DNA of 64,000 bases from Trichobilharzia szidati (lineage: Eukaryota; Platyhelminthes; Trematoda; Strigeidida; Schistosomatidae), in NCBI GenBank assembly GCA_944472155.2, contig OX235277.1, forward strand, positions 12,658,804 to 12,722,803, read 5' to 3'. The stretch's first letter is position 1. Every line of letters starts with the position of its first letter. This document shows, one piece after another, positions 12,374 to 62,076 of the stretch. A model generated the notes under the pieces. The model saw nothing but the letters and a program-made list of their open reading frames with translations. It made no database searches and had not been told where the DNA came from. Position numbers and translations under genes: made by a program.

Positions 12374-12412
12374 TGGCTTTCCTTTTTACACTGTGGCCAT
12401 AATAATCTGACT

Positions 12413-17224: not shown

Positions 17225-17412
17225 GAGAGGACTGTGTGTGTAAGAATTTTGAAACTGACACTCTTCATGCTAGGGAGTGTTGTTCTTCATCTGATTGTCG
17301 ACATCGCAATTCATCCGGGCTTCAATTTTGTTGTAAACGATCAGGTGAATTCTGTAGGGCAAATGAAGATTGCTGTGGAAATTTTTGTCATTATTTTGAA
17401 TGTTACAGATGA
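17225..17412 (+). CDS. Cysteine-rich secreted protein 1, exon 2 (12-Cys domain)
   Basis: The acceptor (TTGAAAG|GA) leaves a phase-1 start that matches exon 1. The frame runs 61 codons to TGA. Cysteines follow C-x-C-x12-CC-x4-C-x10-CC-x6-C-x5-CC-x3-C-x4-C. The last six (C-x6-C-x5-CC-x3-C-x4-C) match the spacing of inhibitor cystine knots. The N-terminal half adds six more, so the fold could also be a colipase/Dickkopf-like or novel one. The protein is small, basic and presumably extracellular. I do not recognise a named family, and a function cannot be read from the sequence. AATAAA lies 57 bp after the stop. Confidence 0.7.
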
Positions 17413-17468
17413 TGTGTTAAATGAAAACTGAATTGTGAAATTTGTTTGTGGGTGTCGGGATAATGAGA

Positions 17469-17474
17469 AATAAA
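17469..17474 (+). terminator. Polyadenylation signal of gene 1
   Basis: AATAAA in a conserved 3' block. The same hexamer follows the Cys exon in unit 2 (27839-27844) and unit 3 (44183-44188). Confidence 0.6.
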
Positions 17475-18734
17475 TCGCTTTTGACAAATTCCTTGTTTTC
17501 TGATTACAAATTCACAGCTTCATTCGACATTTCACGAATTCAGTGTAATCGCCAGTCTCACGTGATCTCTGAAATCAGCTAGCCAGTTGTAAATGTGTTA
17601 ACAGAAATTTGCTGATCGAGTGGTTTCAGTGAATAATGAATGACATGATGTAGTTAATTTCACTGGAAGTTACACTGTCAATCTACACAGCATATGGTTA
17701 ACATAATCGCGGTTGAATACATTCCTTCACTGGCTTAAAATAGGTGGCATCGAGTATTTCCTGTGGTGTGCATACAAAGCCGTATTCAGCGACCAGTAGT
17801 CGATCTTTGGTTGATAAATGCGATCGAAGATAAACGAAGACAATTCTAGAATTCATAAATGCTGTGCATTCTTTCCTACATTCCGTCTATCGAAATGATT
17901 GAGTAACGTAGGAAAGAAATCTCGTGTAATACAGATGGATATTTGATGCATGAAACAACAACCACATTCAGTCTACATGCATCGGGAATATGAGCATTTT
18001 GAGTGTGAATTAACCTGTTCGATGAGAGATGTACATTGTAATTTGTGGGCTACCACGCAAAACTTAACCTCAGCTTTAGGAATTACAGGAATATGCATGC
18101 ATGTGTCTTTACCTTAAAATTAGGACAATAGATGTAGCAGTCGACGAGACACGAATTCGAGTAATAAACGGCGCCTACCGACTGATGACATTTATTGGTT
18201 TCTACCTGCATTCATCAGGTTGAATGTTTATTCTGCTTATTCGTCACTGGTTCAATTTACCAGATTAATTGTATCTGTAGACTGTTACTTCGAAATCCAA
18301 TATTCACTGTGTCAGATATATAGAGATAATGTTTCCGAAGAGACAATTGCATTGACACTGCCTTTCAGGGCTACAAAATGAGAAGAGCATGATTAGGAAG
18401 CAAAGCCATTAAACATTTCATAGACTCTGATTGCAACGATCATGTTGGTTCACGGTAGATGACTATTCATTTTGCCAAATGATTCCTCATTCTCGAGTGT
18501 TCAGTAATCAGTTATTGAATACAGGAAAGAATTCTTTCACACTTGACAATGTTTTCTTTCCTATTGAAACATTCCTGATACACTGAGGATATATTTCTCC
18601 ATGAGATATTTGGTCATAGTCACTGAGAGCGAAAACGACGACAAAATCATGGAGGTGGGGTTGGTAGCCTCATAAATGACACTCTCAATTTCACCGGACT
18701 CATACATGCTGAGCGAGATGAAGTCAGCCGATAT

Positions 18735-18965
18735 TATAAAAAGCTTCCGTCTATGCCTTAGTTGAATACAGCCTTAAATGTTCTGTCTCTGATTTACATA
18801 AATATAAAGATAAAGATAAATATATACTGGGTTGCAGGAACTTGGCTGGTTTCATTTTATGTCACAAATGGATGCCTAGTAGAATCCCACTGGAGAATCA
18901 AGGAGTAAGAGAATGCTGTTTCATTCAGTTACTAAGATTTTCTCCAGCACACTCCCGTGATATCA
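18735..18965 (-). repeat. Dispersed repeat related to the hammerhead SINE
   Basis: Matches 36655-36885 over most of its length ('AAGCTTCCGTCT', 'GAATACAGCCTTAAATGTTC', 'ACTGGAGAATCAA'). On the minus strand a CTGGAGA and a GAAACAGC lie at the spacing of the hammerhead core seen in the other copy, so it looks like a diverged Smα-type element whose core has decayed. Confidence 0.55.
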
Positions 18966-20764
18966 GTCGAAGTCGAAATCTTAACCTCTACGTAACTAAG
19001 CAAGTCCGTTGATTGTTCAACTACAGTGACGGAATCCAAAGGCCTGTGATGTTTTACTTGTGTCAGACAGGGGCATATAACAGTTTTGCTAATAGATGTT
19101 CTTTGCCGAATGCCTGTCCTCACTTATGACAATCTGATTATGACTAATCAGGAGAAAATCAATCCCACACACACCAGGTCTGCCTGTTTGGATGTTAAGA
19201 CAAATACTCGTCAAAATCTTGAGCTTTTGATGTCTCTGCATGCCGCAAATTTCCAGAAGTTAAGATCACACGAGACACTGGGTTCCCACCTAGTGTTCGA
19301 ATAGCCAAAGAGCTTGCTTCGTTACCCGAGGATTTGGAATTCTATCTCAAATGATGTCAGTGGTGGATACTGTCAAAGAGTCCCAGGATAGGCTGCATAC
19401 TAGTGCTGTAATAAGTACAAGTCGTGTGCAGAATTCGAATGACGTAAGTAAATTGTCTAAGTATTTCGTTTTCGTATATTATCATTTGTGAGTATTGCTA
19501 AGCTCATTTAATTAAGATTACTACAATCACTTCCTTTATATTCTATTAGATAGAATTTCTTCAAACATTTATACGTTTTAATAAGGTTATAAGCTGCAGT
19601 CCTTTTATTTCTGACTCCTGTATATTTGCTCTCACTGAAAGTCTAGGTATCAAGCAGGATGTTATTTCAGTAGCATTTCCTTAATACCAGCCAATGACAG
19701 ATACCATATAAAAGGAAAATGGAACACAAGTGATGACAGTCACAATGACATCTAAAGAAAAGAAGTCACTTATATACTGGCATCTGTGTCTCAGCTTTCT
19801 TTGTTATCCACAAAGTCATATCGATATCGCACTTGAATACCTGTCGGCTACAACTGAATATTCCTATAGGAAACAATGACAGTTTAATCGCTATATCTTC
19901 AATTAAGCTGTGATTGCCAATATGTATTCAAAAATTATATTTTTCCATACTTGGTTCTCAAATGCACTCCTTTGTTCATGGTACTGAACAGCTTCTGCTT
20001 TCGTCCACTATCTCTGTAGTGGTTCATATTCTCACTCAGAATATTCCTCTCCTCTGAGAGCTTAAGATTCAACATGACTGAAAGTTGGGTGAATTTTTCA
20101 CGGGTACATCAACAGAATGACTGACACAACCTGTAATACATGGTGATGGGTCAAAGTTTTTTCTCAATGGGTGTGGAAATTCACACGATGATAGACCTCA
20201 GTGATGTTGAGGCATATAGAGAATATATTGACTTAGTCAAAGGTCTAACCAGGACGATGTGCTAAACATTTTCTGAAGAAATGGTTACTTTGTGAAATAC
20301 AAACATAACTGAGATTTCCAACCGGCATTATCAATCTACTTTTCGTGCGTTCTTTTGTTTTAATAGTCGAACAATATCCATAGAAGCGTGATTTAAAGCA
20401 AGCTAAGCTGGAATTCACCAAGTAAACCTTTAATGGACATCCTGGCTGATAATCTTGGTAACTGACTTGCGATATAGGTGGTATAATTAAATCGAATTGT
20501 GTCTCCTGTTATGGATTCGCATAAGTGGAACTACTTAAGGATACATAAGCAAAGTACACTTGACAGGATATCTGGTCTTATGAGAAGATTTTGATTTTAA
20601 GCAAGATTGAATAACAACAACAATCAGAAAAATCAGAAGAAGATCTCGGAATACAATTATCACATCACCATCTTTTACTTGATTTCTCGACTTATTGTTT
20701 GTTCATCAGTTCTGATTAATTTCGCTAAGTCAATCAGGGTGGCTGTTATACTATAGCTGCTACT
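18966..20764. other. Spacer between units 1 and 2, no gene recognised
   Basis: Only short frames without motifs. No repeat shared with other parts of the window was noticed. Confidence 0.5.
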
Positions 20765-21030
20765 ATGGTGCTATCCATTTCACAAGAGAATAAGAGATAA
20801 AATCAGAATTCCAGTTTTTTTGGATTTTCTTCTAGAAAGGAGATCTGACAGTTCTCTTTGAAGATTGATCTACAGGAAACCAATATGCAGTAGCAAATAC
20901 ACGAATTTTCATATTTAGGTACCTTTCATAGGAAAGAGAAAACGTATCAACTGCTTCTCCTCAAGAATAATGGGAGAATGCGCCTGTAGTACAACTGATG
21001 GTGAACTAGAGAGACTCAGACAGGTCCTCG
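20765..21030 (+). pseudogene. Penelope-like RT fragment at the left end of unit 2
   Basis: Near-match to the PLE at 58555-58800 (shared 'GTGCTATCCATTTCA', 'CTACAGGAAACCAATATG' and 'TGATGGTGAACT'), then a jump to the unit-4 equivalent of 59050. It codes the RT region just after the catalytic motif, interrupted by stops. Its presence at the same place beside units 2 and 4 shows it was carried along in the tandem duplication. Confidence 0.7.
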
Positions 21031-21460
21031 TGAAATGATCTAAGTGACTAGACGAGACAACATCTCTCACAACCATCACCTGAACTCTTTCTTTTCACGC
21101 TCGCATGTCCGGAATATCTATGATTGCGGGTAAATTTGTCTCTGATAGCGAGTAATAGGAATTAGATATTATTCATAGGCTCAGTCTCACGAGGAAAGTA
21201 TTATTCACATGTGTTGAGAACGAGAGAATTCAGCTCCTTATGGTACTACAATACAATGACAGACATCTACACAGTGAAATCACATAAAAAGTGCAAAACA
21301 TAACGAGAACATCATTTTTGAATGTCGATAGTAGAGGCAGTTGAGTAGACAAGGTATTGAGAGATCCTGGTAGCGAAAGTACACGGACAAGCAAATGAAG
21401 ACACATCCAAATGGATGAATAAGGAAATATCTTCAAGACTTCGAAGATGATATGGATTCT

Positions 21461-21945
21461 TTTACGAGTTGATCGCGGACTGATATCAGCTAGAGAACCA
21501 TTGAAAACCAAGGAGTACTGGACAGCTGCTGTTTCATCCTAGTTTGGGAATCATCGGCAGTACGCACCCACTGGGATTCGAACCCAGGACCTTCCGGTTA
21601 CAAGGCAAGCTCGTATACCATTCAGCCACTGGGACCCGATTCAATGGCTCATGAATTCTAACTTCTACCAATTCGTGATTTTAGCGCCACCCCAACTATT
21701 GTCGTTGGTGGAAATCCATCCACTCGTGACTTCTAATTGGACCTCACTGGTCACGACTTCTCACTAGAACTGCAGGAAGCTCCAACCTGTAGCAAGTCAC
21801 TAGCGAGCATCAGAATAATTATCTATAGTTTGGTTTGTAAGGATTAGTTATGTTTTACGAGTTGATCACGGACTGATATCAGCTAGAGAACCATTGAAAA
21901 CCAAGGAGTACTGGACAGCTGCTGTTTCATCCTAGTTTGGGAATC
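21461..21945 (-). mobile_element. Smα-type hammerhead retroposon with direct terminal repeats
   Basis: Flanked by an 11-bp target duplication (ATATGGATTCT at 21450-21460 and 21946-21956). Units 1 and 4 have the uninterrupted site. The ends are direct repeats of about 92 bp (21461-21554 and 21854-21945) with one clear difference, giving a period of 393 bp and thus ~1.2 tandem units. On the minus strand each repeat carries the hammerhead end and the body. A tRNA-like head with a B-box lies at about 21570-21645. Elements of this kind are transcribed by pol III and retroposed by a helper. Confidence 0.8.
21515..21563 (-). ncRNA. Hammerhead ribozyme motif (type I), probably weakened
   Basis: On the minus strand: stem I GTACTG pairing with CAGTAC, core CCGATGA, stem II TCC/GGA around CAAACTA, GAAA, short stem III CAG/CTG, and the GTC cleavage triplet. 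The invariant U of CUGA is C here and the pair closing stem II is mismatched, so activity is doubtful. Family: schistosome Smα hammerheads. Confidence 0.65.
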
Positions 21946-24360
21946 ATATGGATTCTGTCAAGTCCATGAGTGCTGTCAACAGAAAAAAAAGGGAAGGAAG
22001 ATGCCTAAAATTGCTGAGGTTCGTGGGATTGACACGAATAAATTCACTAAGTGTAAGTCGGTGTGAAAAGTGACCAATAAGGTTAAGTTATTCTGAGTGG
22101 ACTCAATCGAAAGCGAGGCACTTCAGCATTGCTACATAGTTTACAATAATCGATTCGTGAAGAGGACATGCACAGGGCTCCATTCGATATCCACTGATTT
22201 TACACTCCTATGTAGTCCAAAATGAATATGGGTACGACATCCGGCTGAAGAGTGACAACTTGGTGTCGGCAACATGTGAATCAGGATATGCGTGAGTCCG
22301 TATATGGCACCAGAAATGAACAGTGAATGATGTTCATAAGAGACTGGAAAGTGACTTAAGCGAAAAATTGATTCATCATATCTCTTAACACGAAGCCACT
22401 GAAAATACGAACGCACTGTGTAGATCACATTCCGTATCAAACAATATTCGACATTATTAGATTATCATTTGTGAAGACGTATAACAGTGATGAGCTTCAG
22501 CTGGGATCGCAAACGCATAGGGCTGGGATTTCGAAATCGGAATAAACATTGAGCAGACGAGATAAAATCTCTCACAGACATACAGTGAAATCATCATCTG
22601 GAGCAGTTCTGTCAATCGTTACGTCAGGATCATACGTTTATGTGCTCCAGAGTATCTACGAGTGTGCGAGAAAAAATTCGAAGAAGCGAATTGAAGGAAT
22701 ACGAAATCGAAATACCTGGGGTAGTCAAAAAACAATGCTCACGTGGCAAAATCCAACCGTCATTTATCGACTGATGAATAAACTATCTGAAGTCCAAAGT
22801 TGACGAATGATTAAAACCCCAGTGATGCAATGAATAGCTCAACAATGACAGAATTCTCTGTGTGCGATCACAGTTTTCGGTGTTGTTAATAACTTGGTCG
22901 GCGCTAAATCAACAAATTCCTAAATACCGTACACAGCATAGATTGCATTTCTGAACATCCATCATTAGGGCGTCCATTCCTCACATACCTTGTTGACTAC
23001 TAAAGGTGTATAAACACATTACTCACATTGCCTGATTTCCTATTCATTCAAATTTAATGACGGTTGTGAGTATTGCCACTTGCACATGTTATGACCATTG
23101 CTATGTGGATTTTATTAGTTGTCTTGCAGATAACAATCACTGTTTGACTATTGTGCGCATACAGCTATCGAAGTTGATAAGGAAGATATTGAAGGGGCTA
23201 TTCCTTGATCAGTGATTACTCTTTACAATTCTGAATCAGCTCCATTCACAGATTGTGAGGAATGACTGTGTTTTGTGTCCTGGGCTATGCAGAGCAATCA
23301 CTCGTAATTGAATCTTCTTCCACATAATTTTCCAATGGCAGACTGATATTAACCCAACTTTAAAATGATTTGAAAGCTTTCGTAGACTTCGAATTCTTTA
23401 GAGTGCTGTATAATAGAAACGTCAGGATACAAACGTAAATGCAATCAACAGGGTAGATGCATTATCTGGACTTCAGTCACTTCACAGTGATCGTTCAATG
23501 AATCCGTTTCAAACGTGCCATTTGACTGTTCTATTGCGAATGACGTCACTACTTGGGAATCACTATCATACGCGAAATAGTATTTGAGAATGTCGACAAG
23601 TCTGTCGATATCATTATTGTGGTGCCTAATATCATGTTGAAATGTATCCCTCGACTACGCTGATGATGTAATTCAATCACGCGTTTACAGTACGCTGTGC
23701 GTTGTAATCTGAAACTCGACCACAGATGTGAATTCTAATTACGGAAAGTTTGTTTTAATTTGACGTGTTACATGCAGCAGTTCATGTTTATCTCACTTCG
23801 TCAACGCCTAACTGGTTCCTCTCTCCTCTTCACATTTGATCAATTTTCCACATGTAACATGGAAACCAAATCATTCATAATTCTGTTACATAATTCGTTT
23901 ACATTTAACAACGAGTTCTATAAAATTTTGTTATTATTTCTAGCTAGATTATGCACAAGGCGTCTACTTAATGTTAGTCACTTTTATCCGAATACAAAAT
24001 GAGAATGAAAATAACAATTCGAACAGTCAGTATGATCATGTCAAGTGAATAAGTAGAACTTATGTGTATGTGCAAATAACTATTGTAATGGAATTATTAT
24101 AAATGACTGGGTCTATTTGACAATGAACACAATACAACTACTCACGGACATTGTGTATAAACTAAATGTTACATTCAATTACAATAAATTACGTGACGAA
24201 TACTCGTGTTCTTCTCATTGATCTCACTATACTGACTACGTTTCCACTAATCCCTGTGCTTAGGGAAATACTCACTTATGTTCCAGTGTGAACAATCTTC
24301 ATTCGTGTGTGAACACAATGGCATATAGATATATGTCCACCATTTGGATACAGTGGGAAA

Positions 24361-24366
24361 TATATA
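24361..24366 (+). promoter_or_regulatory. TATA box of cysteine-rich gene 2
   Basis: TATATAA begins 46 bp before the ATG, as in the other units. Confidence 0.6.
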
Positions 24367-24406
24367 ATGGCTTTCCCCTTTACACTGTGGCAATAATAAT
24401 CCGAAT

Positions 24407-24482
24407 ATGCACACTTCTACGTTGCTCAAGATATTGGTATTGTCAGTTCTGATGATGGGCGACCAGGTTGTACGGGCTTCAG
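24407..24482 (+). CDS. Cysteine-rich secreted protein 2, exon 1 (signal peptide)
   Basis: 76 nt, phase-1 end, donor CAG|GTATGT. It differs from gene 1 by one Thr-to-Lys change before the hydrophobic core and a Gln-to-Arg change near the cleavage site. The exon is intact, but the downstream Cys exon has an early in-frame stop, so the gene may no longer make a full product. Confidence 0.6.
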
Positions 24483-24970
24483 GTATGTTTTCTTGTGATG
24501 TGCATTTTATTGTGATTATAGTAGATTTATATTCATAAGTCGGTTGGGTATTATTTGATATTCGGTAGATTCCTTTTATACTGTTCAGCTTTTCTGAATG
24601 TCGGTTTATATACTTTGTTTAGTAATGTCGTTGATGTAGAGGCGTACACGAGTGTACACTTCAACTTCACTCGGTTGATAACTTGCATGATAATTGTGTT
24701 TGTGAGCATGAGATGCTTCGTCAATTTCGGAGTGTCATGTTTACATTAGGTGAATTCGATAGCAGGGATATTTGTAGAATATTGGTATTCTTAAGAATGG
24801 GAGAGCATTGTGATTGTTTTTGGTAGATCCTTGTATTCATTGCTTAGCATAGATGTGACATTGATGTTGTTTCTGCACTGGGAGGCATCAACATGCATAA
24901 TAAACAAAATAGTATCAGCTGTAACCACAATTTGACCTCAGACATTCACATGTTGGTCAACCTCAGTTAG

Positions 24971-25169
24971 TTTTTTATTTAATTTTTTATATTGATTACA
25001 GCTTGATTCCACACTGTATTTTGAGTACAAGTATGGAATTTTCAGCATTGATATCGGTAGCCCAAATTTACAGGCCGACCATAGATATCGGGTGTGCGCC
25101 GGCAGGGAATCGAACCTCGGACCTTGTGCATGGTCGGCGAGAATCCTAGCAACTGTGACACCGACGCAC
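24971..25169 (-). repeat. tRNA-derived SINE in the intron of gene 2
   Basis: Same family as 8556-8752, reversed: a T-rich tail at the left, the shared body, and a tRNA-like head whose A and B boxes lie near 25100-25165. Units 1, 3 and 4 are empty at this point ('CAGTTATACACTTT'), so it inserted after the units separated. Confidence 0.8.
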
Positions 25170-27600
25170 ACTTTAAACAGAGTGTACTATTCATCAGATT
25201 ACGTTCAACTGAATGTTGATGATCGTAGATAACTAAATATGAAAGGATTTGTGCATATGCAGTATACAATGACGTGTTTATGAGTGTTTTTGTTAAGCAG
25301 TTGTAAACCATTGGTTAGCTTCTCCATCAGAATATATAGACAATCAGGAATTTATATCAAGTATGAATAATTAGTGATAGACATCCATTGTAATTTATTA
25401 ATCAGGATTTACCATGCATCAGCTAACATCACACCTGCACGCCTGTTCAAACTGTTGAGATTCACTCATGTATGTGGAGCTTCTGCTGTCAGTGTTTCTT
25501 TCATTAGTGATGAACATGAGTTGCTCGTTCCACATGGAAGCACTCTAATAGCGTTACTCCTCAAGATCTCCCTTCATCTCATTCTATGTTTCTTGGTGGT
25601 AAGAAATCACCGCTGACAATAACCCAATTCGTGCAAAAAGATTTCTATCCATCCTTTTATTCACATTTTGAATATCTGTCTATGAAGGATTTAGGATTAT
25701 TACTTGATTCCATCAGAACGTTCAAGTTCATCTAATTAGGTGTAATGGAAATTTAAGAAGTCGACTGAAAGAATAAACCTACCTGTCAAACATCCTGCAG
25801 ATTGTCTCTGGCTTTCATTGGAGTTTTTTTCCCCCCAAAGATTCCAACTTCTCAGCCTCTGGTGGAATTTGTAAGAACTCAGTATCAAAGCCATGTTGTG
25901 AGGGTTTTGTGTGTAAACGATTTGCGACACGGAATGGTGGATATCTTACATCTTGAGAATTGCGATCATCGTGCCTCTTCGATGAAGTGTGTTGCATTCG
26001 GACATGCGCTCACCATGTTGGCGAACCTAATATACCCGTATTTCAGCGGATGCTTTGCGTAGTCATATGTGTTATTGCTAACAGTTTTTAGAACAACAGG
26101 CTTGCAAATTGACTAGTCAGGAAATTGGTTTTCAAAACTGTATGTGAATCACCGGTGGTTTCAAAATCTGCGACAGCGTATTTCATTGACATGTAGAATT
26201 TAGCCAACAGATTAAGTTGAGATGAATCACTTTTTAAAAGTCTTTCATGTTTGCTCATAACCATCTGATATTTTCATCCCACATCACGCGAATCGAAGAA
26301 AATCACTCAATACACATGCTGGTCATCCGTGCTAAACTATTTAGCCACTTGTTTGCCTGTTGATATTAGTTAGGTGTTTCTGAGTGAAATATGACAGAGA
26401 CGGTGTGGTTTGTGTTCGTTATCTCATATTCAAATCATGATGCACGAATTGATTGCGCCAGACTCCGATGGTGAATACTCTATGCGAAGCAGGAATTGCT
26501 GATATTAGTCGGAAATTGGCAAACAACTTCCCTGAGTCGAATTGTGTTTCATTAATACCAAAACACAATTCTAATTATAGTTCAATTGTCACAAGATTGA
26601 CACGTTCACTAACAGAATACATTCGGATATATAAAAAGTGGAAATAGCTGTGTTAGAAAAGCATCTCAACTTTTCACTATTGAGTTGTGTTCATCACCAT
26701 TTTAATGTTCATCTCTCCACCATAGTCACATTGTTAATGATTATCACTGGTAGATCAATGTTTCAGCTCATGACTTCAGGTAATCGTAGGTGTTGTGTAG
26801 TGTTTTCTGTGGTCTCTTTCATTCTGAAGTTCGTTGTTTGAAGTAGAAGAACTGCTACCATTTCACTGAAGATTCTTCCTTCTCATAACCTACTGATCAC
26901 AAATCAGTGTAGCTCGTCGCCTTCTCCTGAACCGTTGTGGTGCATACGTGACATTTTATAATTTCTAAACTTCTGTCATCTGAGTGAACACTTTTCGTGT
27001 GTCAATCACACTGTTTCCTTGTTGTAGGCATGATGGATATTTGAATCAGAAGGATAGATTTGTTGAAACGTATGCTCACTGATGTGCATACGTCTGCGTT
27101 ATTACACTGCGTGAAAGAAAACACAGATCAAAATTTGTGAAATTTGTGTACTAATAAGTAAATAAGTCGGTTTCAACGCAGGACACACTGGTCATTGAAC
27201 ACAATGGAGATAATCGTTAGCATTCGTATGAATAGCAGTGATCAGTAGATATTCAGATGTGTATAGGTTTGCAGGACATGACTCGGTTGCCTTGAATAAA
27301 CTCTCTGCATCTCTGTCATTTCAATGTATGCTAGTTAATAACACTTTTGTGCGTGAGTGGATGTCAGATTTCTGTCAACTATGAACTAAATCTGATCTCT
27401 GACTACATTTCACGTGGGTCAAACTGACGTCGCCTACAAATCAGGAGGAGAAGTGGTGTTGAGGTAGTAATGTGAATGATTTATCTCGCAATAATTTATT
27501 GAATAATTCATTCTTGACCATTTAATATTAATTTTCATTGCAAACTGCGGCTTTCGTTTTCATGAAATACTAATATCTTTTTATTTGTTTTCCTTGAAAG

Positions 27601-27788
27601 GAGATAACTGTGAGTAAAGGGATTACGATATTGGCTGTAATATATTTGGGAAGTGTTGTTCGCATTCTGAATGTCGATATCGCTTTTCATCAGGTAAAAC
27701 ATATTGTTGTAAACCACGTGGTCATATATGTAAAGAACATGAAGAGTGCTGTGAAAATAGATGTCGAAAATCTCGATGTGGTAACTGA
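27601..27788 (+). pseudogene. Cysteine-rich secreted protein 2, exon 2, with in-frame TAA
   Basis: The exon has exactly the 188-nt length and acceptor of the other copies, with no indel. In the phase set by exon 1, codon 5 after the junction is TAA (27615-27617), where the other copies code the second Cys of the C-x-C pair. All remaining cysteines keep their spacing up to a TGA at 27786, and an extra Cys has appeared seven residues after the stop. The body is otherwise undamaged, so the nonsense change is recent, or an alternative splice avoids it (GTGAGTAA overlaps the site and resembles a donor). AATAAA at 27839-27844 is intact. Confidence 0.6.
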
Positions 27789-28890
27789 GAATGAAAACTG
27801 AAATGTGAAATTTGTTTGTGGGTGTCAGGATAATGAGAAATAAAGCACTTTTGACAAATGCCTTGGTTTCTGATCACAAATTAACAGCTTCGTCCGACAT
27901 TTCACGAATTCAGTGTAATCGTCAGTCTCACGTGATCTCTGAAATCAGCTAGCCAGTTGTAAATGTGTTAACAGAAGTTTGCTGATCAAGTGGTCTCAAT
28001 CAACAATGAATAACCTGATGTAGTTGATTTCACTGGAAGTTACACTGTCAATCTACACAGCGTATGATTAACATGTTCGCGGTTGAATACATTCCTTCAC
28101 TGGCTTAAAATAGGTGTCATCGAGTATTTCCTGTGGTGTGCATACAAACTCGTATTCAGCGACCAGTAGTCGATTCTTGTGTTGATAAATGCGATCGAAG
28201 ATAAACGAAGGCAATTCTAGAATTCATAAATATACTGAGCGATAATTATAGTGTATTCCTGCCTACATTCCGTCTATCGAAATGATTTCGTAACGTAGGA
28301 AGGATATCTCGGATATTACAGATGGATATTTGATGCATGAAACAACCACATTCAGTCTACATGCATCACGAATATGAGCATTTTGAGTGTGATTTAGCCT
28401 GTGCGATGAGAGATGTGCATTGTAATTTGTGGACTATCACGCAAAACCTAACCTCAGCTTTAGGAATTACAGGAATACGCATGCATGTGTCTGTACCCGA
28501 AAATTAGGACAATAGATGTAGAAGTCAACGAGATACCGATAGATGACAAAATAGTGGTTTCTAACTGCACCCATCAGGTTGAATGTGTATTCTGCTGATT
28601 CGCCACTGGTTCACTGTATCAGATAAATTGTATCTGTAGACTGTTACTTCGGAATCCAGTATTCACTGTGTAAGTTATCTAGGTAAATATGTTCTGAAGA
28701 GACATTTGCATTGACACTGCCTTTCAGGGTTACAAAATGGGAAGAGCATGAGTAGGAAGCAAGCCATTAAACATTTCATAGACTCTGATTTCATCAACCA
28801 TGTCCGTCAACAGTAGGTGACTATTTATTTTTGCCAAATGATTCTTCATTCTCGAGTGTTCAGTCATCAGTTATTGAAGCCAGGGAGCTG

Positions 28891-31800
28891 GTGGTGTACA
28901 TCAGGATAGAATTCATTCATAAGATGACCTATCTGATAAGAATAAGCCATAAAGAACCTTGACTACCAACAAAACAATAAACTAACACCACAATCATAGT
29001 AGAAGGAATTGAAGATGGATTGGATGAATGCATACGAGACAACTGAATAACTTCGTCCGATCAGGCCATGAAATGGATATCGATAAGTCGATCGTGGGTC
29101 AGACTGTTCTTTGCAGGTGCTCGTGTGAAGAGGAAATGAAAGGTGATTTTCATTATTTTGACCAGCTAAATAAGTTTTCAAATGACGAAATAGCGATGTG
29201 CTTTTGGAATCCCCTTATGTAGTCGTAACATAACGAAAGAATAAAAAGCACAACAATGTCTACCCAGTTTTCCACCTTGAATTTTACTTAAAAAGATGCT
29301 GAAATATTCCTTAACAAAAACAATTTGAATTACATACAGAATTTGGTAATATGTTACGTCTTAGACTGTCAGTTATACTGAGTTATAACATAAGTAATGA
29401 TATTTTATTCGTCAAACGTAGGTTATTCTCATTTCTATAAAATACTTCATTCCTAGTAATGCTAGGAAGTCAAAGAACATTTTCCAAAGTCGAAATTAGC
29501 AATGTACGAACAAACCTGATCTCATTTTTGGATAATCAGATGAGTATTAGTCTCATTATTTATCAGTTTATGCCATCATGTCGGCACTGATAGGCTTAAA
29601 TTTCGTCTGCTTTTTTTACCGACGCCATTACCGAATCAACGGTATGCTTATCTGAGTTGTAGTCATCTGATTACGTCAATGACCAACAGTGCTACATCGA
29701 TGTGTGCACGTATATGCACGTTGTTTCAAGATCGTTTTGCCAGAGTTCATATGTTTTTAGTTTATAAAATAACAAGCGAATTGTATTAGAATGTTCAGTA
29801 GCTATAAATACTTGTCTGATTAGAAAACTGGGTCATCTGAATCTACATTCGGCACAGTTCATCAAAATTTTCTCTAATTCTTTTGGTTTCAACCATCTCT
29901 ATATTTCCTAGTTCGCTAAGTGTACTCACGCAGATTTTCAGTCTGCGTTGGTATTTATTGAGGACGAGAGGAAAATATCATAAGAGATTAGTCTATATAC
30001 AGATTGAACAGTATTGCTTCATAATATATAAAACAGACTGACGTCAGTGGATGAAGGCGAAATATTATGCATTTAATTAATCTGAGAATTCTGTAAATTG
30101 TGTTAGGATTTTGTCCAAAATAAGGCTGTCACTTTTACTCATTTTGCTTATTTAACTATCCATTTTTCCTGTTGATATTTTTGTCTGTGGCGTTTGTGTT
30201 TGTTGAACATTGAACTTCAACTAACCAGACTGATTTTAAACGCAGAATTTATCTTTTAGTGCTGTTTAGTTGATTTTTGAATTGTCAAAGAATGTCAGGT
30301 TGATGTCAGACATCAGGAAGATTTATCAACTGATTTGACTGACATTTGGTCTTACTGACAGATTTGAAGTTATTCGTTCAACTGCTCACACTGTGGTTCC
30401 AACAAGAAGAACCAGACAAAGGTGACCAAAATTCTGAAGTTCGAAAGTCACTTATGCTTAGCAAATGTGCATCACACTTTTGAAATGAGGTTTTCCCATT
30501 TTCATAGAGATAAATATCGTGTGACCACAAAATGTAAGCATCACAGCTTTTCTGTAGTGGCGTGATTCACTTTGTTTGATATATGCATCAGTGTGAAAGG
30601 TCGAGTGGTTAAGAAAGGTGTCTCTCAGCTTCCTTAATGTGGGGTTTCTGTATGTGATGTTATTAAGACACTTATCAACTTGATCTCCAAATGTTAATAG
30701 CTGCTGTGTAATTATTTGCCTACACATTCAGCAGTGTTGAAGTTCCTTGTAATTAATGGTAATTAAATATTCAAAAGAATTAATGTTAAACTGTCTGCTT
30801 AAGAAACGAATGGATATCGAAAGAACACGCATCCCAATCCATTAGAGATGTTTTACAAATAGCTCTATGTTACTATACGCACAGAGGCACCTGTTGGCAT
30901 GGACTTCTTGACATCGGTTCAACATCATTCAGCAGCAAAGTTTGTGTCGCAAGATGCTGACATTATTGAATTTCACATCCCTTTTTGTAGAAGTAAGTGA
31001 AGACTATGTATAAGGAGTTTTGACAGTAGATGTTGCTGTCTATTTATTCTTTTCGTGTTTGTCCTAGACCACTGAACATTGTTATTTCAAAATCCCGTAA
31101 AGCTGAATTAGTTTTGTTATTCCTTCATGACAAAAACTAATAGACACTTAATCTATCTCAAACCTGTTAAGTGGGAACAAATTCGAAAGTATGTTTTCTA
31201 TTAAATGCCAACTACTATTTGGTCTTTTCTGAAAATGGCTTGTTCAACTTCAAAAGTTGAATCTATATCAAATTATGGAAATTAGTTGTTAGACGGTTGA
31301 GTTTTTCAAATGAAAATAACTGTAAACTGAGGAATGACGGGGTTCTGCCTTCCTCACACCAGCTTTCAAAAAGAAAATTGGGTCAAGTTAAATTTTGTAA
31401 AAGCAACAATAGTTGCTCAGCATAAACGGCATGCAGAAGATTGAAGAAACATTCACAAGTGTAGGTGGGAAGAAAGATCACATAAAATATTTATCTAGAA
31501 TACAACTCACTTCCCAGGTTTAATGACTTGTATTTTTTAAAGAAAAGGCTGATTCTCTGAGTATTTTGTTCACTTTCTTCCAATAGACGCATGGCGAAGA
31601 CGAAACCAAAAGAAATTTAGGAATAAATCAACAGGACAGTTTTCTAGTCGAGTATTTATAACATAAATACCCCGAATGTACAGCAGTTATCAACTGTTAT
31701 TTTGTTCAGAATTTTTCTGGAACACAAGACTTTTAGTATTTTAGGCTAAACCATTCTACTACTAACATAAATCGGTTGCAGATATTACTCACTATTATGA

Positions 31801-33570: not shown

Positions 33571-34164
33571 GTGAGTTAGCTTATGTCACAAAATGAAAGA
33601 ATCTTTCACTTACAAATAGATTTATTTTTATGTTATACAGTAAGTACTACGATAGGACATAAAGTTATATCTGAAAATTAGTCTTGTTTGGGATACGTCT
33701 ATTCATCTGTCAACATTGGTTGACTTGGGATGATCCCTACCATTCGGAATGCTGCGAATGTAATTGCTGTCTATAGCACGACAGAGAACCACTTGAAAGC
33801 GAATATCTGAAGTAATGAAATATTTCAGTCAATGGCTAGACTGAACATCGTTCGCACACAGTAATAAAGATGGACTGATAGAGGTATACAGTGTTGTCGT
33901 TTCTTGTCAAGCTGACTTCTTAAAATTATCCAAAGGTACTCTCATCATATCAGCATTCAAATTACGGGTTAAGGGATTCTTTGAAGAAAAAATTAATAGA
34001 TTAATAAAACGAAATCATAAAGTGTGTCACTTTCGCCATCATATAAGACAAGTATGATAATGTCCTACATTTTAAAGTATTGGTTTGGTAGGGATTTTGT
34101 TTAATTGCATGGAGGATTTCATCAGGAGCTGACATCAGTTAGAGAACCACTGGAAAACCTGGGA

Positions 34165-34210
34165 GTGCTGGACAGCTCTTTCGTCCTAGTTTGAGACTCT
34201 TCAGCAGTAC
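34165..34210 (-). ncRNA. Hammerhead ribozyme motif, left arm
   Basis: Minus strand: stem I with one mismatch, core CTGAAGA, stem II GTCT/GGAC, GAAA, short stem III, GTC triplet. The core differs from CUGAUGA only at the seventh position of the standard numbering (N7), which tolerates any base. The base after GAAA is G instead of C, so the pair below the cleavage triplet is a G-G mismatch. Confidence 0.6.
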
Positions 34211-34544
34211 GCGCCCACCGGGATTCGAACCCAGGACCTTCTGCTTACAAGGCGAGCTCATAGACCATTGAGCCACTGGGACCCATCCAATGGTCTTTGA
34301 ATTCTAACTTCTGCCAATTCACGACATAGCGTGACCATTTCTAGTGGGAAGCCGTGACCGGTAGTGTACAGCAGGTTGAAGATGAGACAGTAACTTATCT
34401 AAGAAGACATTGCGAAATGGTCGCGCTATTTCGTGAATTGGCAGAAGTTAAAATTCAAGGACCATTGGATGGGTCCCAGTGGCTCAATGGTCTACGAGCT
34501 CGCCTTGTAACCAGAAGGTCCTGGGTTCGAATCCCGGTGGGCGC

Positions 34545-34590
34545 GTACTGCTGAAGAGTCCCAAACCAGGACGAAAGAGCTGTCCAGTAC
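34545..34590 (+). ncRNA. Hammerhead ribozyme motif, right arm
   Basis: Stem I GTACTG (34545-34550) pairs perfectly with CAGTAC (34585-34590). Core CTGAAGA (34551-34557), stem II GTCC/GGAC around CAAACCA, GAAA at 34573-34576, GTC at 34582-34584 with predicted cleavage after 34584. The same G-G mismatch next to the triplet as in the left arm may lower activity. Confidence 0.7.
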
Positions 34591-34658
34591 TCCCAGGTTT
34601 TCCAGTGGTTCTCTAACTGATGTCAGCTCATGATGAAATCCTCCATCCTACATTTTAG

Positions 34659-35519: not shown

Positions 35520-35651
35520 ATCCGAAAAATGATCTATAAGTAATTCTTTACTTCTGAACTGTTTAATTCAACTGCGGAGCATTCACCTCATAATGTGGAT
35601 AATTGTACTCTTGATGCTGATCGGACAAAATGATCAAGTCCACTACTTTAG

Positions 35652-35726
35652 ATCAACACTGTGACTATAGATGATGCTGGTATCTATGGATATGCTGCTC
35701 AAAATGATATTCATATAAGAGTTTTG
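35652..35726 (+). CDS. Candidate exon, C-terminal half of an Ig domain lacking its Cys
   Basis: Acceptor ACTTTAG|ATC, then 'TIDDAGIYGYAAQND', the E-F strand signature D-x-G-x-Y-x-C-x-A-x-N with Tyr in place of the conserved Cys. With the B-strand Cys present in the exon at 35390, the usual disulfide could not form. No clear donor is seen, so the end is approximate. Either a pseudo-domain or one that has lost its disulfide, as some muscle-type Ig domains do. Confidence 0.45.
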
Positions 35727-36654: not shown

Positions 36655-36885
36655 ATTATAAAAAAGCTTCCGTCTTTGCTAAAATTGAATACAGCCTTAA
36701 ATGTTCTGTCTCTGATTTAATTTAATGCCGAGAACCTTTTATATATACATACTGGGCTGCAGAGACTTAGCTGGTTTCATTTTGGGTCACGAATCGAAGA
36801 ATTTCACTGGAGAATCAAAGAGTAATGTTATGCTGTTTCCTTCAATTCCCTAACTCTTCATCAGCACACAACCCTGAAATCATCC
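36655..36885 (-). repeat. Dispersed repeat related to the hammerhead SINE
   Basis: Second copy of the 18735-18965 repeat. The minus strand has CTGATGA, a 16-bp spacer and GGAAACAGC, a recognisable but decayed hammerhead order. The cleavage triplet is not evident. Confidence 0.55.
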
Positions 36886-38464: not shown

Positions 38465-38643
38465 CGTTCACCAAGCAGGCAGAAGAAGTGCTTTCAAGTT
38501 ACTCTACCGTGTTCCATAGAAACTTTCGAACAGAATTTGGAAGTGCCTTTAACACAGATGAAGATGTGGTATTTCGAAGAGGGAAATCCTGTTCTTGGTA
38601 TACGAAAGGAGTTGATTCTTTGTTTGTCTCTCCAGTGGTCAAG
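38465..38643 (+). CDS. Candidate exon, coding-like, possibly of the same Ig gene
   Basis: Acceptor ATCGACAG|CG, open through 'NTDEDVVFRRGKSCSWYTKG' to a donor CAAG|GTAAAT. Composition looks coding. The stretch with Cys and Trp-Tyr followed by Lys-Gly resembles an Ig B-C strand region, but weakly. It lies downstream of the Ig candidate exons on the same strand. Confidence 0.35.
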
Positions 38644-39130
38644 GTAAATTCCAATTCAAAACTTCTCATCCTTATAATATTTACAGAATTGTTCACGTAC
38701 TTATATTACGCTCACTATTCTTATTGACACGCATTATTTTTCTTGTACTTTTGTTTAATTACCTGATTTTTCCTACAAAACCATGTCCTTCAGAGTAATG
38801 GCAGTATACGATGCAAATGAAAACGATCTCGTTGGCTTATTTCCAGTTGTGAATAAAGAAATGACAGTAACACTTTTTAGTTAAAACGCCTTGACAATAC
38901 AACACGATGCGGGCACATAAAACACATTTAAGTGAAATATCCAAACTTCATATGAACAGACTAATAAACCTACTTACAAACAATCAGCATATCAAAATTA
39001 ACTTTGAATTAGTGTGCAAATTTTAGTTCCAATTAAACTGGTCATATACGTTTATTTTTTTATTCCTTGCTATCTCACTGGAAAATGAGTCTTAAAGCTC
39101 AGAAGGTACAGTTACTGTGGTGTTCTATCA

Positions 39131-40044
39131 TCACGTAATCACATAAGCGAATAAAGAAATCCAGTCACCAGGGCAAGGAAAGCGTCTGATAGAGATTGCT
39201 TCCGCAAACTTCAGGAGAATGAAAATCCTTTGCGTATTGATAATTTTAAAGGATTTCTCGATTTCCACCCCATGACCCATATCAATCAAGGAGATGTGTG
39301 GTAAAGGCATTGATGTAAGTGCGTGTTCCCGTGAGAAGTTATTTTTTCGGCACATGTTCGGAAAATTGGAGGTATGCCCTTATTTCTGTTCCCCCAATGT
39401 AACTGCTCCCGCAGATACATGCGAAAATTTGTATACACAGTTGGAGTTAACATGAGAAGGGTATCCATCGACTTTAGACTGCACCAAAGAGCATGTTGTT
39501 TGATGGACGGGAACCAAATTATATGCAGGATAGGCTCTGGCTAGTGACGTTCTCACTCTACTTGAGACCACTTCTGCGATGTTTTCAATTTGAAAATCTA
39601 ATTGGATGAAGACAGGCTTTTATCCAACTGTGATTTGTTTGGTGTTTGAGCCTTCACATCTTCCAAATTTGTTAATGAGTCTTTTAGGATAACCGTAGTT
39701 CTTCAGCACCTTTTCGAGAATCGTGAATTCTTCCTCCAGTTTCTCTGTAGAGCACATTTTTCTCGCTCTATAGTACAGAGTCTTTACTAAAGCTCGTTTG
39801 CAGCTATTTGGACAAAACTATTAAGATGTACGTATTGTCCATTCCATGTCAACTTTCGGTAAATCAACCTAAAGAGGGTACTATCTTCAAGGCGTTGCAT
39901 GGCAATGTCAAGGAAATAGAACTTTCCATCATTTTCATTTTTCATAGTATATACAACATTTGTATGTGCGTTGTTGAATAGTCTGAGTAGGTAGGAGGCA
40001 GGACTTCCGTTGTTGCATACTACAAATGTGTCATTGAATGTTTT
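39131..40044 (-). pseudogene. Penelope-like element, decayed, reverse orientation
   Basis: On the minus strand the pieces run in PLE order: 'TFNDTFVVCNN' (remains of the catalytic Y-x-D-D region), 'NENDGKFYFLDIAMQ', 'LIYRKLTWNGQYVHL' (40104-39787), then 'YPAYNLVPVHQTT' and 'NSNCVYKF' (39571-39380), then 'KSFKIIN' and 'LLKFAEAISIRR' (39355-39131). Frameshifts separate the three pieces. It is truncated at the RT catalytic motif, precisely where tandem unit 3 begins (40045), so it marks the broken left edge of that unit. Confidence 0.75.
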
Positions 40045-41221
40045 CGTAGACTTCAAATTCTTTAGAATGCTATCTAATAGAAACGTCAGCATTTCTGCAA
40101 TCATCTGAAGTGTGATTCAAGATTAATATTTCGGGCTCGAATACGTTTAAATAGAAACTTCACTTACATATGAGACAGGAATCAACCTCATCCATCCGAG
40201 AAACGCTTCTACGGTCAAATTGTGTGATTGTGCCTCGAATCGATTCTCAACTAAGAGACCTGCATGGATGTGACAGTGACAATTTAACTGTATTCAACCA
40301 TAAATGCCAGCAACAGGATAGATGCATTCTGTGGATACCAGTCACTTCACAGATGGGGTTCATTGAATCTGTTTCCAACGTGGCACATGACTGTTCTATT
40401 GCGAAGGACGTCACTACTTGGGAATCACTATCACACGCGAAATAGTATTAGAGACTGTCAACCAGTCTGTCGATATTATTATTTTGCTGCCTAATATCTT
40501 GTTGAAACGTATCCCTCGACTACGCTGATGATGTATTTCAATCAGGCGTTTACAGTACGCTGTGCGTGGTAATCTGAAACTCGACCACATGTGTGAATTC
40601 TAAATAAGGAAAGTTTGTTTTTAATTTGACGTGTTACATACAGCAAGTTATGTCGATCTCACTTCGTCAAATCCCAGCTGGTTCCCCTCTCCTCTTCATT
40701 TTCGATCGATGTTCCACATGTAACATGGAAATCAAATTATTCATAATTCTGCTACATTATTCGTTTACGTGTAACATGAGTTCTATATGTTTTTGTTAGT
40801 ATTTTCGGCGAGATTATGCAGAGAGCGTCCACTTAATGTTAGTCACTTTTATTCGAATACAAAATGAGAATGAAAATAACAATTCGAACAGTCAGTATGA
40901 TCATGTGCAGTGAAGAAGTAGAACTTATGTGTGTGTGCAAACAACTATTGGAATAGAATTATAATAAATGACTTGGTCTATTCCAAAATGCACACAATAC
41001 AACTACTCACGGACACTGTGTATATCCTCAATATTATATTGAATTACAAAGAATTACGTGACAAATACTCATGTTCTTCTCATTGATCTCACTACAATGA
41101 CTACGTCTCCACTAATCCCTGTGCACAACGAAATGCCCACTTATGTTGCAGTGTGAACAATCTTCATACGTGTGTGATCAAAATGGCATAGATATGTCCA
41201 CCATTTGGATACAGTGGGAAA

Positions 41222-41228
41222 TATATAA
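41222..41228 (+). promoter_or_regulatory. TATA box of cysteine-rich gene 3
   Basis: TATATAA, 46 bp upstream of the ATG. Confidence 0.6.
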
Positions 41229-41267
41229 TCGCTTTCCACTTAAAACTGTGGCAATAAGAATCCGACT

Positions 41268-41343
41268 ATGCACACTTCTACGTTGCTCACGATATTGGTA
41301 TTGTCAGTTGTGATGATGGGTGACCAGGTTGTATTGGCTTCAG
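41268..41343 (+). CDS. Cysteine-rich secreted protein 3, exon 1 (signal peptide)
   Basis: 76 nt, donor CAG|GTAAGC, phase 1. The signal peptide differs from gene 1 by Leu-to-Val in the core and Gln-to-Leu near the cleavage site. The intron to the next exon is the shortest of the three complete copies (2601 bp) because of an internal deletion. Exon 2 is at 43945. Confidence 0.7.
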
Positions 41344-43944
41344 GTAAGCGTTTTTGTGATGTGCATTATTTTGTGATTATAGTAGACTTGTATTCATTAG
41401 GCTGGCTGAGTATTACTTGAAATTTGGTTGATGCCTAATTCACTGTTCAACTATTCTGAATGTCGGATGGTCCACTTTGTGTAGTAATGTCGTTCATGTA
41501 CAGGAGTTCACGAAGGTAGACTTCAACTTCACTCTGTTGATAACTTGCATGATAATTGTGTTTGTGAGCATGAGATGCTTCGTCAATTTCGGAGTGTCAT
41601 GTCTACATTAGATGAATTCGATAGCAAGGATAGGTGTGAAATACTGATATTCTTAAGAATGGGAAAGCATGGTGATAGTTTTCCTTAGATCCGTGTCTCC
41701 AATCTGTATCGAAGCTGTGTCTCAGATGTTGTTTCTGCATCAGTTATTATCTACACTATTTGGTTACTGGTCTGTTGCTCATGTGTAACTGTACACACAA
41801 TGAACCGTGTTAATTGCATGATGTACATCGTCGTGCTCTGTATCTTTTCTGGCATTTAGCCTAGTTGATAACTGAACAGCTTCTCAATTGATGACAATGT
41901 CAGCGAAGTTAGGTTTAGAATATTATGGCTCATTATTATTCATTTGTGTTCACTAGATTAGTTCTCATTTGAATGGAATGCACAGTATAGATCAATTGTC
42001 AAGACACGAACAAGTCAAATATTCTCGTAAAATTATATGTCATAGATCTTAGCGAAATTGAAATGACCGACTGCAAAGTTTCGTTGAGGAAACAGGTCCG
42101 AACTTCTTCAGGGAAATCAATTGAAATTAACACAAGAGAGGTTCATGTATTAAAGGATATCTCATGTCTTTGAAAACTTTGTCTTTCCGTTCGAGTCATG
42201 AAACAGGCATCAACATGTATAATAAACAAAATTGTATGAGGTGTGATCGAAATTTGACTTCAGACTTTCAAATGTTGGTCAACTTCAGTTATACACTTTG
42301 AACAGTCTGTACTTTTCATCAGATTACGTTCGACTGAATGTCGATGGTCGTAGATACCTGAATGTGAAAATATATGTGCATATGCAGATTACAGTAGTGC
42401 GGTTATGATTGGTTTTGTTTAACAGTTTTAAAACATTTGTGAGCCTCTCCATCAGAAGATGTAGACAATCCGTAATGTATACCAAGTATGAATTATTAGT
42501 GACAGATATCCATTTTAATTTTATTAATCAGTATTTACCATGCATCAGCTAACATGACATCTTCACGCCAGTTCAAACTGTTGAGATTCACTCATGTATG
42601 TAGGACTTCTGCTGTCAGCCTTTCTTTATACGACCCTAAACATTTTCGCGGAACCTTAGTCTTATCAAAGCCGATTTTGTGTCTCGTTTATATGGAATGC
42701 AGTGTGACTGTTTACTAGTTTCTTTAGGTCTGCAGATATTTTTGAACCACTTTTAGACGTCATTTATGCTCTTTCACTATTATATTTTGCTGGCTGGGTG
42801 TTTCTCCTACATATACGGCGACGCTGTCAAGGTCTCACCACTGCGAATAACCCCATTCTCACCAACAGATTTCTATCCATCCTTTACTTCACGTTTTGAA
42901 TATCTCTCAATGAAAGACTAAGGAAAATTACTTGATTCCATCAGAAGTTCCAAGTTTATCTCTTTAGGTGTAATGGAAGAAAAAGAAGTCGACTAAAAAA
43001 ACAAAAGCGCCTCTAAGATATCTTGCATAGTGTCTCAGATTTTCATAAGAATTTGTTTTCCTTCAAATATTCCGACTTCGCATCTTTTGGTCGAATTTGT
43101 AAGAACTCAGTATCAAAGCCATGTTGTGGTTTTTTTTGTTTGAACAGTTTGCGCAACGGAATGGAAGATGTCTTACATCTTGATAATTGCGATCATGACT
43201 GTAGACTGCGTCTTCTCATAATCAACTAATCACAAATCAGTGGAGCTCGTCGACTTCTCCCCAACCTTTGTGGTACATCCGTGTCATTTTGTAATTTCCA
43301 CGCTTACGCCATCTGAGTGAACACTCTTCGTGTGTCAATCACACTGTTTCATCGTTGTACACATGATGGATAGTCAATTCAGAAGGATAGATCTGTTGAA
43401 ATGTATGCTCACTGATGTGCACATGTCTGCATTATTCCAAAGCATGATATGAAACAGTGAACGAAATTTGAAAAATTTGTGTACTAATAAATTAAATTCA
43501 GTTTCAATGCACGACACACTAGTCATTGAACAAAATGGAGATAATTGTTGGCATTCCGATGAATAACAGTGATCAGTAGATATTCAGATGTTTATAGGAA
43601 GTTTGACAAGGTTTGCGGGATATGCCTCGGTTGCCTTGAATAAACTCTCTGCATCTCTGTCATTTCAATGTTTGCTAGTTGATAACATCATTGTGCGAGA
43701 ATGGATGGCGGATTTCTGCCAACTATGAAGTGAACCTGATCTCTGACTACAACTTACTAGAGTCAAACTGACGTCGCTTACAAATTGGGACGAAAAGTGG
43801 CGTTAAGGTAGTAATGTGAATGTTTTATCTCGCAATAATTTATCGATTAATTCATTCTTGACAATTTCATGTTAAATTTCGAAGCTTACTCTGTCATTCT
43901 TTTACATGAAATACCAATATCTTTGTATTTGTTTTCTTTCAAAG

Positions 43945-44132
43945 GTAATTCTTGTGAGTGTTGGAATGACGATTTGGCTAGTTCCAAGATTGAAAAGTGT
44001 TGCAACCCTTCGCGATGTCGACGTCGCAAATCAACAGGTATTCAATTCTGTTGTCAACGAAGGCATGGACTTTGTGAGGTGAATGAAGACTGCTGTGAAA
44101 ATAATTGTCGAAATTCTCATTGTGGTAACTAA
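43945..44132 (+). CDS. Cysteine-rich secreted protein 3, exon 2 (12-Cys domain)
   Basis: 188 nt, acceptor TTCAAAG|GT, phase 1, stop TAA. All 12 cysteines sit at exactly the spacing of gene 1 (C-x-C-x12-CC-x4-C-x10-CC-x6-C-x5-CC-x3-C-x4-C), but by my count only about 13 of the 48 other aligned residues agree. Shared non-Cys positions cluster in 'QFCC' and 'NEDCC'. The domain is more basic in its middle (a run of Arg and Lys around residues 23-26). Predicted secreted; function unknown. AATAAA at 44183-44188. This and gene 1 are the two intact complete copies in the window. Confidence 0.75.
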
Positions 44133-62030: not shown

Positions 62031-62037
62031 TATATAA
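62031..62037 (+). promoter_or_regulatory. TATA box of cysteine-rich gene 4
   Basis: TATATAA, 46 bp upstream of the ATG. Confidence 0.6.
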
Positions 62038-62076
62038 TGGCTTTCCCCTTCACACTATGGCAATAATAATCAGACT

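Follow-up and report, generated by a model that had tools for sequence, protein, structure and literature searches.

The stretch of DNA analysed here, hereafter the window, comprises 64,000 nucleotides of contig OX235277.1 of Trichobilharzia szidati (C7:12658804-12722803; source genome of 1.114 Gb in 907 contigs). It forms part of a much larger tandem array and holds four copies, A-D, of one unit, whose gene joins a short signal-peptide exon to a second exon encoding a mature domain with 12 cysteines (Cys). We show, taking the mutation rate to be equal along the unit, that this mature exon, together with up to ~100 bp of the upstream intron, is genealogically deeper than the DNA a few hundred bases to either side. 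Across the family we observed discrete exon classes, mosaic flanks, highly similar signal exons and a ratio of nonsynonymous to synonymous divergence (dN/dS, or omega) below 1 among recent copies. The contrast between exon and flanks is probably one of unequal genealogical depth, in which old exon classes persist while recombination homogenises the flanks around them.

Divergence of the mature exon and its flanks

All four units lie on the plus strand (A, 9469-18649; B, ~21033-28960; C, ~40034-45572; D, ~58548-64000, cut by the window end). Exon 1 of each (12413-12488, 24407-24482, 41268-41343 and 62077-62152, in the order A-D) is 76 nt long, encodes the signal peptide, of 25 residues in unit A, and closes with a phase-1 GT donor. 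In units A, B and C an AG acceptor precedes exon 2 (copies 1, 2 and 3 at 17225-17412, 27601-27788 and 43945-44132, each of 188 nt), which encodes a mature domain of 61 residues, including 12 Cys positions, and a stop; an in-frame stop at the position of the second Cys codon breaks copy 2. Exon 2 of unit D (L071, C7:12724048) lies 1.2 kb beyond the window end. Under the classification given below, the exon types of the four neighbouring units all differ: copy 1 belongs to class 10, copy 2 resembles class 6 by eye, copy 3 is of class 7 and the exon of unit D is of class 3.

Comparison of copies 1 and 3 upheld the original prediction, made from the letters of the window alone, that the mature exon is more divergent than the adjoining non-coding DNA. 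As shown by the alignment, 76 of 188 exon sites differ (0.404) vs. ~0.11 in the flanks (0.108 both in the intron at 17070-17189 and in the 3′ flank at 17430-17549), and the mature proteins have, as predicted, 25 of 61 residues in common, 12 of these being Cys. Over three copies the exon contains 98 variable columns, the maximum among 877 188-column windows not overlapping the exon being 51. Two-breakpoint segmentation, blind to the annotation, placed the divergent block of copies 1 and 3 at 17226-17411, which is the exon to within 1 bp at either end (twice the log-likelihood difference, 2ΔlnL, 83.1); the block of copies 1 and 2 begins at 17142, ~80 bp inside the intron, and that of copies 2 and 3 ends at 17362. 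The 3′ flank of copy 1 (17413-17971, with AATAAA near 17470) is alike across units of different class. A minus-strand open reading frame (ORF) 3′ of the gene was rejected as a second gene, as stops were found in 12 of 55 matches.

Two further claims stood in part. Conservation of the last ~120 bp of the intron holds for copies 1 and 3 (0.108) but not family-wide, where the DNA 25-100 bp upstream of the exon differs by 0.22-0.32 between classes; judged on the family, the last ~100 bp of the unit A intron (12489-17224) are a class-specific island. The signal exon, described as nearly identical among copies, varies in 9 of 76 columns over the four units (0.118), which is below the mean of 102 neighbouring 76-bp windows (0.214) but not the extreme (minimum 0.079).

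A six-frame search of the source genome with the exon returned 134 matches at E ≤10, at least 126 of them at E ≤0.00103; 110 of the 126 are located on C7 (9.89-13.05 Mb) and 16 on C8 (18.56-18.79 Mb), four contain a stop, and all these counts are lower bounds. For a 101-bp stretch around the signal exon there were 113 candidates, and the 40 scored, on C7 and C8, were all 95-100% identical. The C7 array is oriented on the minus strand at 9.89-11.93 Mb and on the plus strand at 12.29-13.05 Mb; a near-twin of copy 1 (98% protein identity, one internal stop) lies 1.1 Mb off, in the opposite half. From 90 fetched loci we obtained 98 exons, every one with an AG acceptor and 83 with exactly 12 Cys. 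The sample for further analysis was drawn from 105 exon-like matches, from which two UPF0506-like sequences (L072, L073), five partial, one duplicate, two stop-truncated and one overlong were dropped; window copy 3 was added and copy 2 left out, giving 95 exons. Single linkage of the amino-acid sequences at 75% sorted these into 14 classes, four being single exons.

Divergence by distance from the exon was determined on 71 exons at single-exon loci (24 exons of 14 double-exon or overlapping loci were dropped; n=54 for the long-flank part). The median synonymous divergence (pS) of the exon is 0.274 between and 0.078 within classes, and the 3′ flank at 0-200 bp gives 0.112 and 0.090. At 200-600 bp the corresponding medians are 0.12-0.13 and 0.096-0.114 downstream and 0.11-0.14 and 0.09-0.11 in the upstream intron. 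Close to the exon the intron yields 0.16 between and 0.04 within classes for the last 25 bp, 0.32 and 0.08 at 25-50 bp, and 0.22 and 0.10 at 50-100 bp. Medians climb at 600-800 bp to 0.17-0.20 and 0.16-0.18, and upstream at 800-1000 bp to 0.29 and 0.20; farther out (downstream from 800 bp) they reach 0.42-0.60, where the alignments are uninterpretable. Selection on the coding sequence does not explain why the intron 25-100 bp upstream is divergent too, and the island is therefore best taken as a block of older genealogy. In 149 of 150 random between-class pairs the island edges had medians of -51 bp (left) and -1 bp (right), with a 10-90% spread of -128 to +291 bp and -117 to +188 bp, respectively. 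Its limits are thus placed close to the stop codon and, for the average pair, ~50-100 bp into the intron.

Within classes, exon and flank change at about the same pace. Among the 567 within-class pairs, exon pS is 0.039 at a flank divergence (K) of 0.015 (ten pairs), 0.050 at 0.045, 0.086 at 0.076, 0.108 at 0.104 and 0.135 at 0.137, and flattens at higher K (0.147 at 0.179, 0.139 at 0.250, 0.130 at 0.316); the ratio of nonsynonymous divergence (pN) to pS is 0.66 overall. The 3898 between-class pairs show a pS of 0.23-0.29 and a pN of 0.27-0.31 across mean flank K of 0.08-0.35. Fourfold sites of unchanged codons differ between classes by 0.245-0.257 at K of 0.08-0.14, and the high between-class pS is therefore not solely a counting artefact. 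For flank K<0.16, pS/K is 1.05 (0.86-1.25) and pN/pS 0.64 (0.52-0.79) within classes (374 pairs), and 2.14 (1.95-2.32) and 1.09 (1.02-1.18) between classes (1321 pairs); conditioning on low K inflates the pS/K ratios, that over all within-class pairs being 0.80, and the unconditional medians are the better statement. The nearly equal pace of exon and flank within classes argues against exon-targeted mutation and against constraint on the flanks, and for unequal genealogical depth.

The histories of exon and flanks are also partly decoupled. In pairwise distances over the 95 exons, thirds of the exon correlate with each other at 0.42-0.75 and with the adjoining 50 bp of intron at 0.07-0.45, and exon and flank segments correlate at -0.05 to 0.19. 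For exon vs. upstream flank r is 0.19, inside the range of 500 permutations, and for upstream vs. downstream flank it is -0.09. On trees of 55 loci, class changes number 9 for the exon (the minimum), 12 for the 0-100 bp upstream, 19 for the 100-600 bp upstream and 25 for 500 bp of 3′ flank; with shuffled class labels the mean is 36 and the minimum 30. The residual class signal of the flanks, far below that of the exon, is expected from block duplication. Support for the three groupings of units A-D is clustered along the unit (35 runs vs. 61.9 expected, with none of 5000 shuffles as low), which is the pattern that recombination or conversion would leave, and the longest identical runs are above the 95% shuffle limit in all six pairs of window units. 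Exon halves are discordant in 2 of 95 exons; one of them, L040_2454, is apparently chimeric, with its N-half nearest class 0 (90%) and its C-half nearest class 3 (95%).

Weighing the explanations

We propose that unequal crossing-over and gene conversion would keep equalising the signal exons, introns and 3′ flanks across units. Already divergent exon blocks may resist conversion through poor pairing, may stay distinct because selection favours variety in the repertoire, or both. New classes would originate with accelerated amino-acid change and, once formed, would come under mild purifying selection and spread through unit duplication.

A variant of this proposal, which we regard as unlikely although it is the strongest of the alternatives, is that existing gene shells receive copies of a cassette made up of the mature exon and ~100 bp of intron. 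It would account for 145 within-class pairs (59 exons) with flank K>0.20, for the exon pS of 0.139 in the 130 within-class pairs at K of 0.2-0.3, and for island edges that centre on the exon. Yet within-class medians of exon and flank are similar, the edges vary widely, and high K includes poorly alignable flanks, some from double-exon loci.

Ongoing diversifying selection on point mutations, acting on an exon that matches its flanks in age and mutation rate so that only amino-acid change is faster, was the cause named in the original prediction, and we now consider it improbable. It had been expected that dN/dS would be well above 1 in exon 2. Instead, the Nei-Gojobori method (NG86) gave 1.75, 0.69 and 0.89 for the three copy pairs (dN 0.56, 0.54 and 0.45; dS 0.32, 0.78 and 0.51). 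These ratios stay modest because exon dS is far above the divergence of the flanks, whose path lengths for the same pairs are 0.13-0.16 (3109 flank sites; branch lengths 0.062, 0.073 and 0.083). Pathway counting in NG86 was judged insufficient as a source of the high dS, based on fourfold sites of unchanged codons in the 95 copies. For the signal exon, dN was 0.036-0.106 and dS 0-0.118 over 25 codons in four copies, too few for a verdict on dN/dS<1.

Codon mixture models on the window, with the synonymous rate free and 200 parametric bootstrap replicates per test, favour selection to a certain extent. The hypothesis of all omega ≤1 was rejected (P=0.010), and with the flank rate imposed on the exon it was rejected at 2ΔlnL 140. 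At the same time, the best exon synonymous rate on the grid was 2.5 times the flank rate, and equal rates (s=1) were rejected (P=0.015). With a quarter of the codons fixed and omega set to 1 for all others, simulations at s=5 led to an expectation of 26.3 silent changes in conserved codons, of which 11 were seen (P=0.005), whereas those with s=1 and selection fit, reproducing most window statistics with one marginal excess, in silent T/C differences in changed codons (P=0.048). The window alone indicated both selection and an older exon. Against an exon of equal age speak the between-class silent sites, at 2-3 times the divergence of low-K flanks, as well as the divergence of the non-coding intron 25-100 bp upstream.

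Selection was followed along the family tree with a two-ratio model under three branch labellings, on one FastTree topology and with recombination inside the exon ignored. With branches labelled by class, omega was 0.58 within and 1.27 between classes for all codons (between vs. 1: P=0.12), and 0.72 and 1.64 for non-Cys codons (P=0.0016 vs. 1). Because these classes had been cut on amino acids, branches were relabelled by node depth and by third-position classes. Node depth gave 0.59 for recent and 1.24 for old branches in all codons (P=0.16) and 0.74 and 1.58 in non-Cys codons (P=0.0038); third-position classes gave 0.69 and 1.11 in all codons (P=0.59). Over the three labellings omega of recent branches thus spans 0.58-0.87 and non-Cys omega of old branches 1.41-1.64. 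Of the claim that diversifying selection is the cause, what survives is the excess on old branches and the rejection of omega ≤1 in the window; the high between-class pS and the recent dN/dS of ~0.6-0.9 tell against the rest. We conclude that diversifying selection probably contributed when the classes arose, but that the exon/flank contrast is mainly due to something else. Our reading is one of accelerated amino-acid change at class origin, followed by mild constraint.

Hypermutation targeted to the exon, by an error-prone polymerase or mutator that raises synonymous and nonsynonymous change jointly as proposed for conotoxins, seems very improbable. High pS and pN between classes agree with it, as does the excess of pS over K in the ten closest within-class pairs, and the same Ds pattern in conotoxins led the authors of PMC3862624 to invoke such polymerases. 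Over the rest of the within-class range, however, pS is at or below about the flank level (pS/K 1.05 at K<0.16; medians 0.078 vs. 0.09-0.11), and the synonymous codon is mostly kept at Cys. Flanks slowed by regulatory or splicing constraint, beside which exon 2 would only look fast, have in their favour that between classes no part of the flanks diverges less than the first 50 bp 3′ of the stop (median 0.08), but are just as hard to credit given that within classes flank divergence is about that of exon synonymous sites and that the 200-600 bp on either side behave alike.

Several observations weigh against unequal genealogical depth with homogenised flanks. Exchange may have run in either direction, by making flanks uniform or by bringing in copied exon cassettes. 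The decoupling is incomplete, with class signal left in the flank trees (19 and 25 changes vs. the shuffled minimum of 30), and the exon vs. downstream flank correlation, although low (r=0.16), exceeded all 500 permutations. Classes were cut by amino-acid similarity, so that the contrast within vs. between them is partly by construction, and the 95 exons analysed compare with at least 126 matches. In the closest ten pairs pS (0.039) is above K (0.015), while the 567 within-class pairs taken together show the reverse (0.115 vs. 0.143), which makes the 1:1 clock approximate. Signal exons in six fetched loci were only 88-97% identical. The three window copies fit selection at the flank synonymous rate only moderately worse (P=0.015), simulations of four rate models, run before the family data, favoured selection, and under third-position-class labels the non-Cys omega was 0.87 on recent and 1.41 on old branches (P=0.086).

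A further, tentative reading is that the array forms a germline repertoire, in which a limited set of ancient exon cassettes circulates among interchangeable, homogenised gene shells sharing a near-invariant signal exon. Eleven loci (L003, L004, L005, L006, L008, L009, L010, L014, L020, L025, L040) carry two mature exons separated by 227-359 bp, and every exon has an acceptor and a stop of its own. A class 1 exon precedes one of class 0 or 12, at a distance of 227-258 bp in ten loci and of 359 bp in the one whose first exon is broken. AATAAA lies 36-38 bp 3′ of the first stop in ten of the eleven, and 166 bp in L010, where the first exon is cut short. No signal exon was found between the paired mature exons, nor elsewhere in these 11 fetched loci. 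In a twelfth two-exon locus (L047) the exons are 1712 bp apart. The arrangement suggests that a single signal exon could be joined to alternative terminal exons.

Protein identity and other elements of the window

From its sequence, the predicted product resembles a secreted 12-Cys double-knottin-like protein. The C-terminal block shows the six-Cys framework C..C..CC..C..C of the inhibitor cystine knot (ICK) in all 13 sequences compared, which represent 13 of the 14 classes with one sequence apiece, and has in common with single ICK toxins the spacing C-x6-C-x5-CC-x3-C-x4-C; the N-terminal block departs from the six-Cys ICK spacing. Best PDB profile matches were the single-knot toxins omega-atracotoxin-Hv1a and delta-conotoxin TxVIA, at E values that are not significant (0.11 and 0.22). 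The best match to a conotoxin family, that of one of three other class members tried to Conotoxin_I2, had E 0.018 and 15.6 bits, below the cut-off of 27. AlphaFold2 run from 2 sequences gave an unusable model (mean predicted local distance difference test 51.1, predicted template modelling score 0.35). Protein database searches returned nothing for the family or for its UPF0506 relative, and these blanks weigh little, the database apparently being without this group. The protein may be secreted into the host, and family resemblance together with the signal peptide would suit a host-directed knottin role.

According to PMC8400842, UPF0506 has a knottin fold and occurs generally in Schistosoma; no function is defined in that paper. 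Copies 1 and 3 did not match PF11703 (UPF0506) at E ≤10, nor did three other class members at E ≤1, and a genome scan with PF11703 placed none of the 150 scored of 832 candidates on C7 or C8. The C6 relative L072 passes both PF11703 (E 3.9e-9) and Toxin_12 (22.2 bits, cut-off 21), and in one hhalign comparison the family profile matched L072 with probability 88 and E 3.1e-6. By eye, the family shares with UPF0506 two tandem Cys blocks, but in its first block a mid-loop Cys is missing and an additional one stands two residues upstream. It is distantly related to UPF0506 and is not filed as a member. The UPF0506 scan itself gave 832 first-look candidates, with 150 of 150 scored above the curated cut-off and none in 14 control genomes. 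Large UPF0506 arrays were seen on C6 (5.6, 36.7-75.2 Mb), C3 (104 and 140 Mb), C1 (112.7 and 194.7 Mb), C5 and C2, and some copies form head-to-head pairs, whose matched stretches are 52-56 bp apart (C6:60383115-60383315 on the minus and 60383368-60383565 on the plus strand).

Two type I hammerhead ribozymes (34165-34210, minus strand; 34545-34590, plus strand) lie within a 233-bp inverted repeat of 96% identity (34109-34646). A 541-aa reverse-transcriptase ORF (50334-51959; PF00078, E 1e-34) adjoins a gap of N.

Comparison with known systems and meaning for the family

The family shares with conotoxins (PMC3862624, PMC10561478, PMC3823881) a conserved signal exon and introns beside a divergent mature exon on a Cys framework, with the last ~100 bp of the intron as the family-wide exception. 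Snake phospholipase A2 (PLA2) genes have similarly low intron divergence. Conotoxins also keep site-specific Cys codons, and here the ninth Cys is TGC in 85 of 95 exons, the other 11 being mostly TGT; between classes, third positions of Cys codons differ at half the rate of other conserved T/C-ending two-fold codons (0.061 vs. 0.118). In conotoxins Ds, which climbs together with Dn, goes from 0-0.13 in exon 1 to 0.34-0.68 in exon 3 (Table 5 of PMC3862624), and the high Ds of mature exons was ascribed there to error-prone polymerases. The present family differs in that no separate propeptide exon was seen, that dN/dS between mature exons is not well above 1, and that the within-class comparison shows no clear excess of exon rate, so that targeted mutation is not needed. 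The cause of divergent mature exons beside conserved introns was called largely unknown for conotoxins (PMC10561478). In the snake venom genes for which accelerated segment switch in exons to alter targeting (ASSET) was described, exon segments strongly differ, introns are >85% similar and Cys are kept, the mechanism again being called unknown (PMC2711939); here, by contrast, the unit comprises the entire exon and as much as ~100 bp of intron, and the array has at least 126 matches. Among the papers listed in literature searches, no title or abstract opening described a flatworm knottin array or such exon/flank decoupling.

An array of at least 126 matches with two layers of relatedness lets the candidate causes be compared, and the same test of exon vs. 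flank within and between classes is applicable to conotoxins and snake toxins. An exon that is faster than its introns is, by itself, no test of positive selection in recombining arrays. If the repertoire reading is true, the array would store its diversity as discrete cassettes, not through mutation of one exon.

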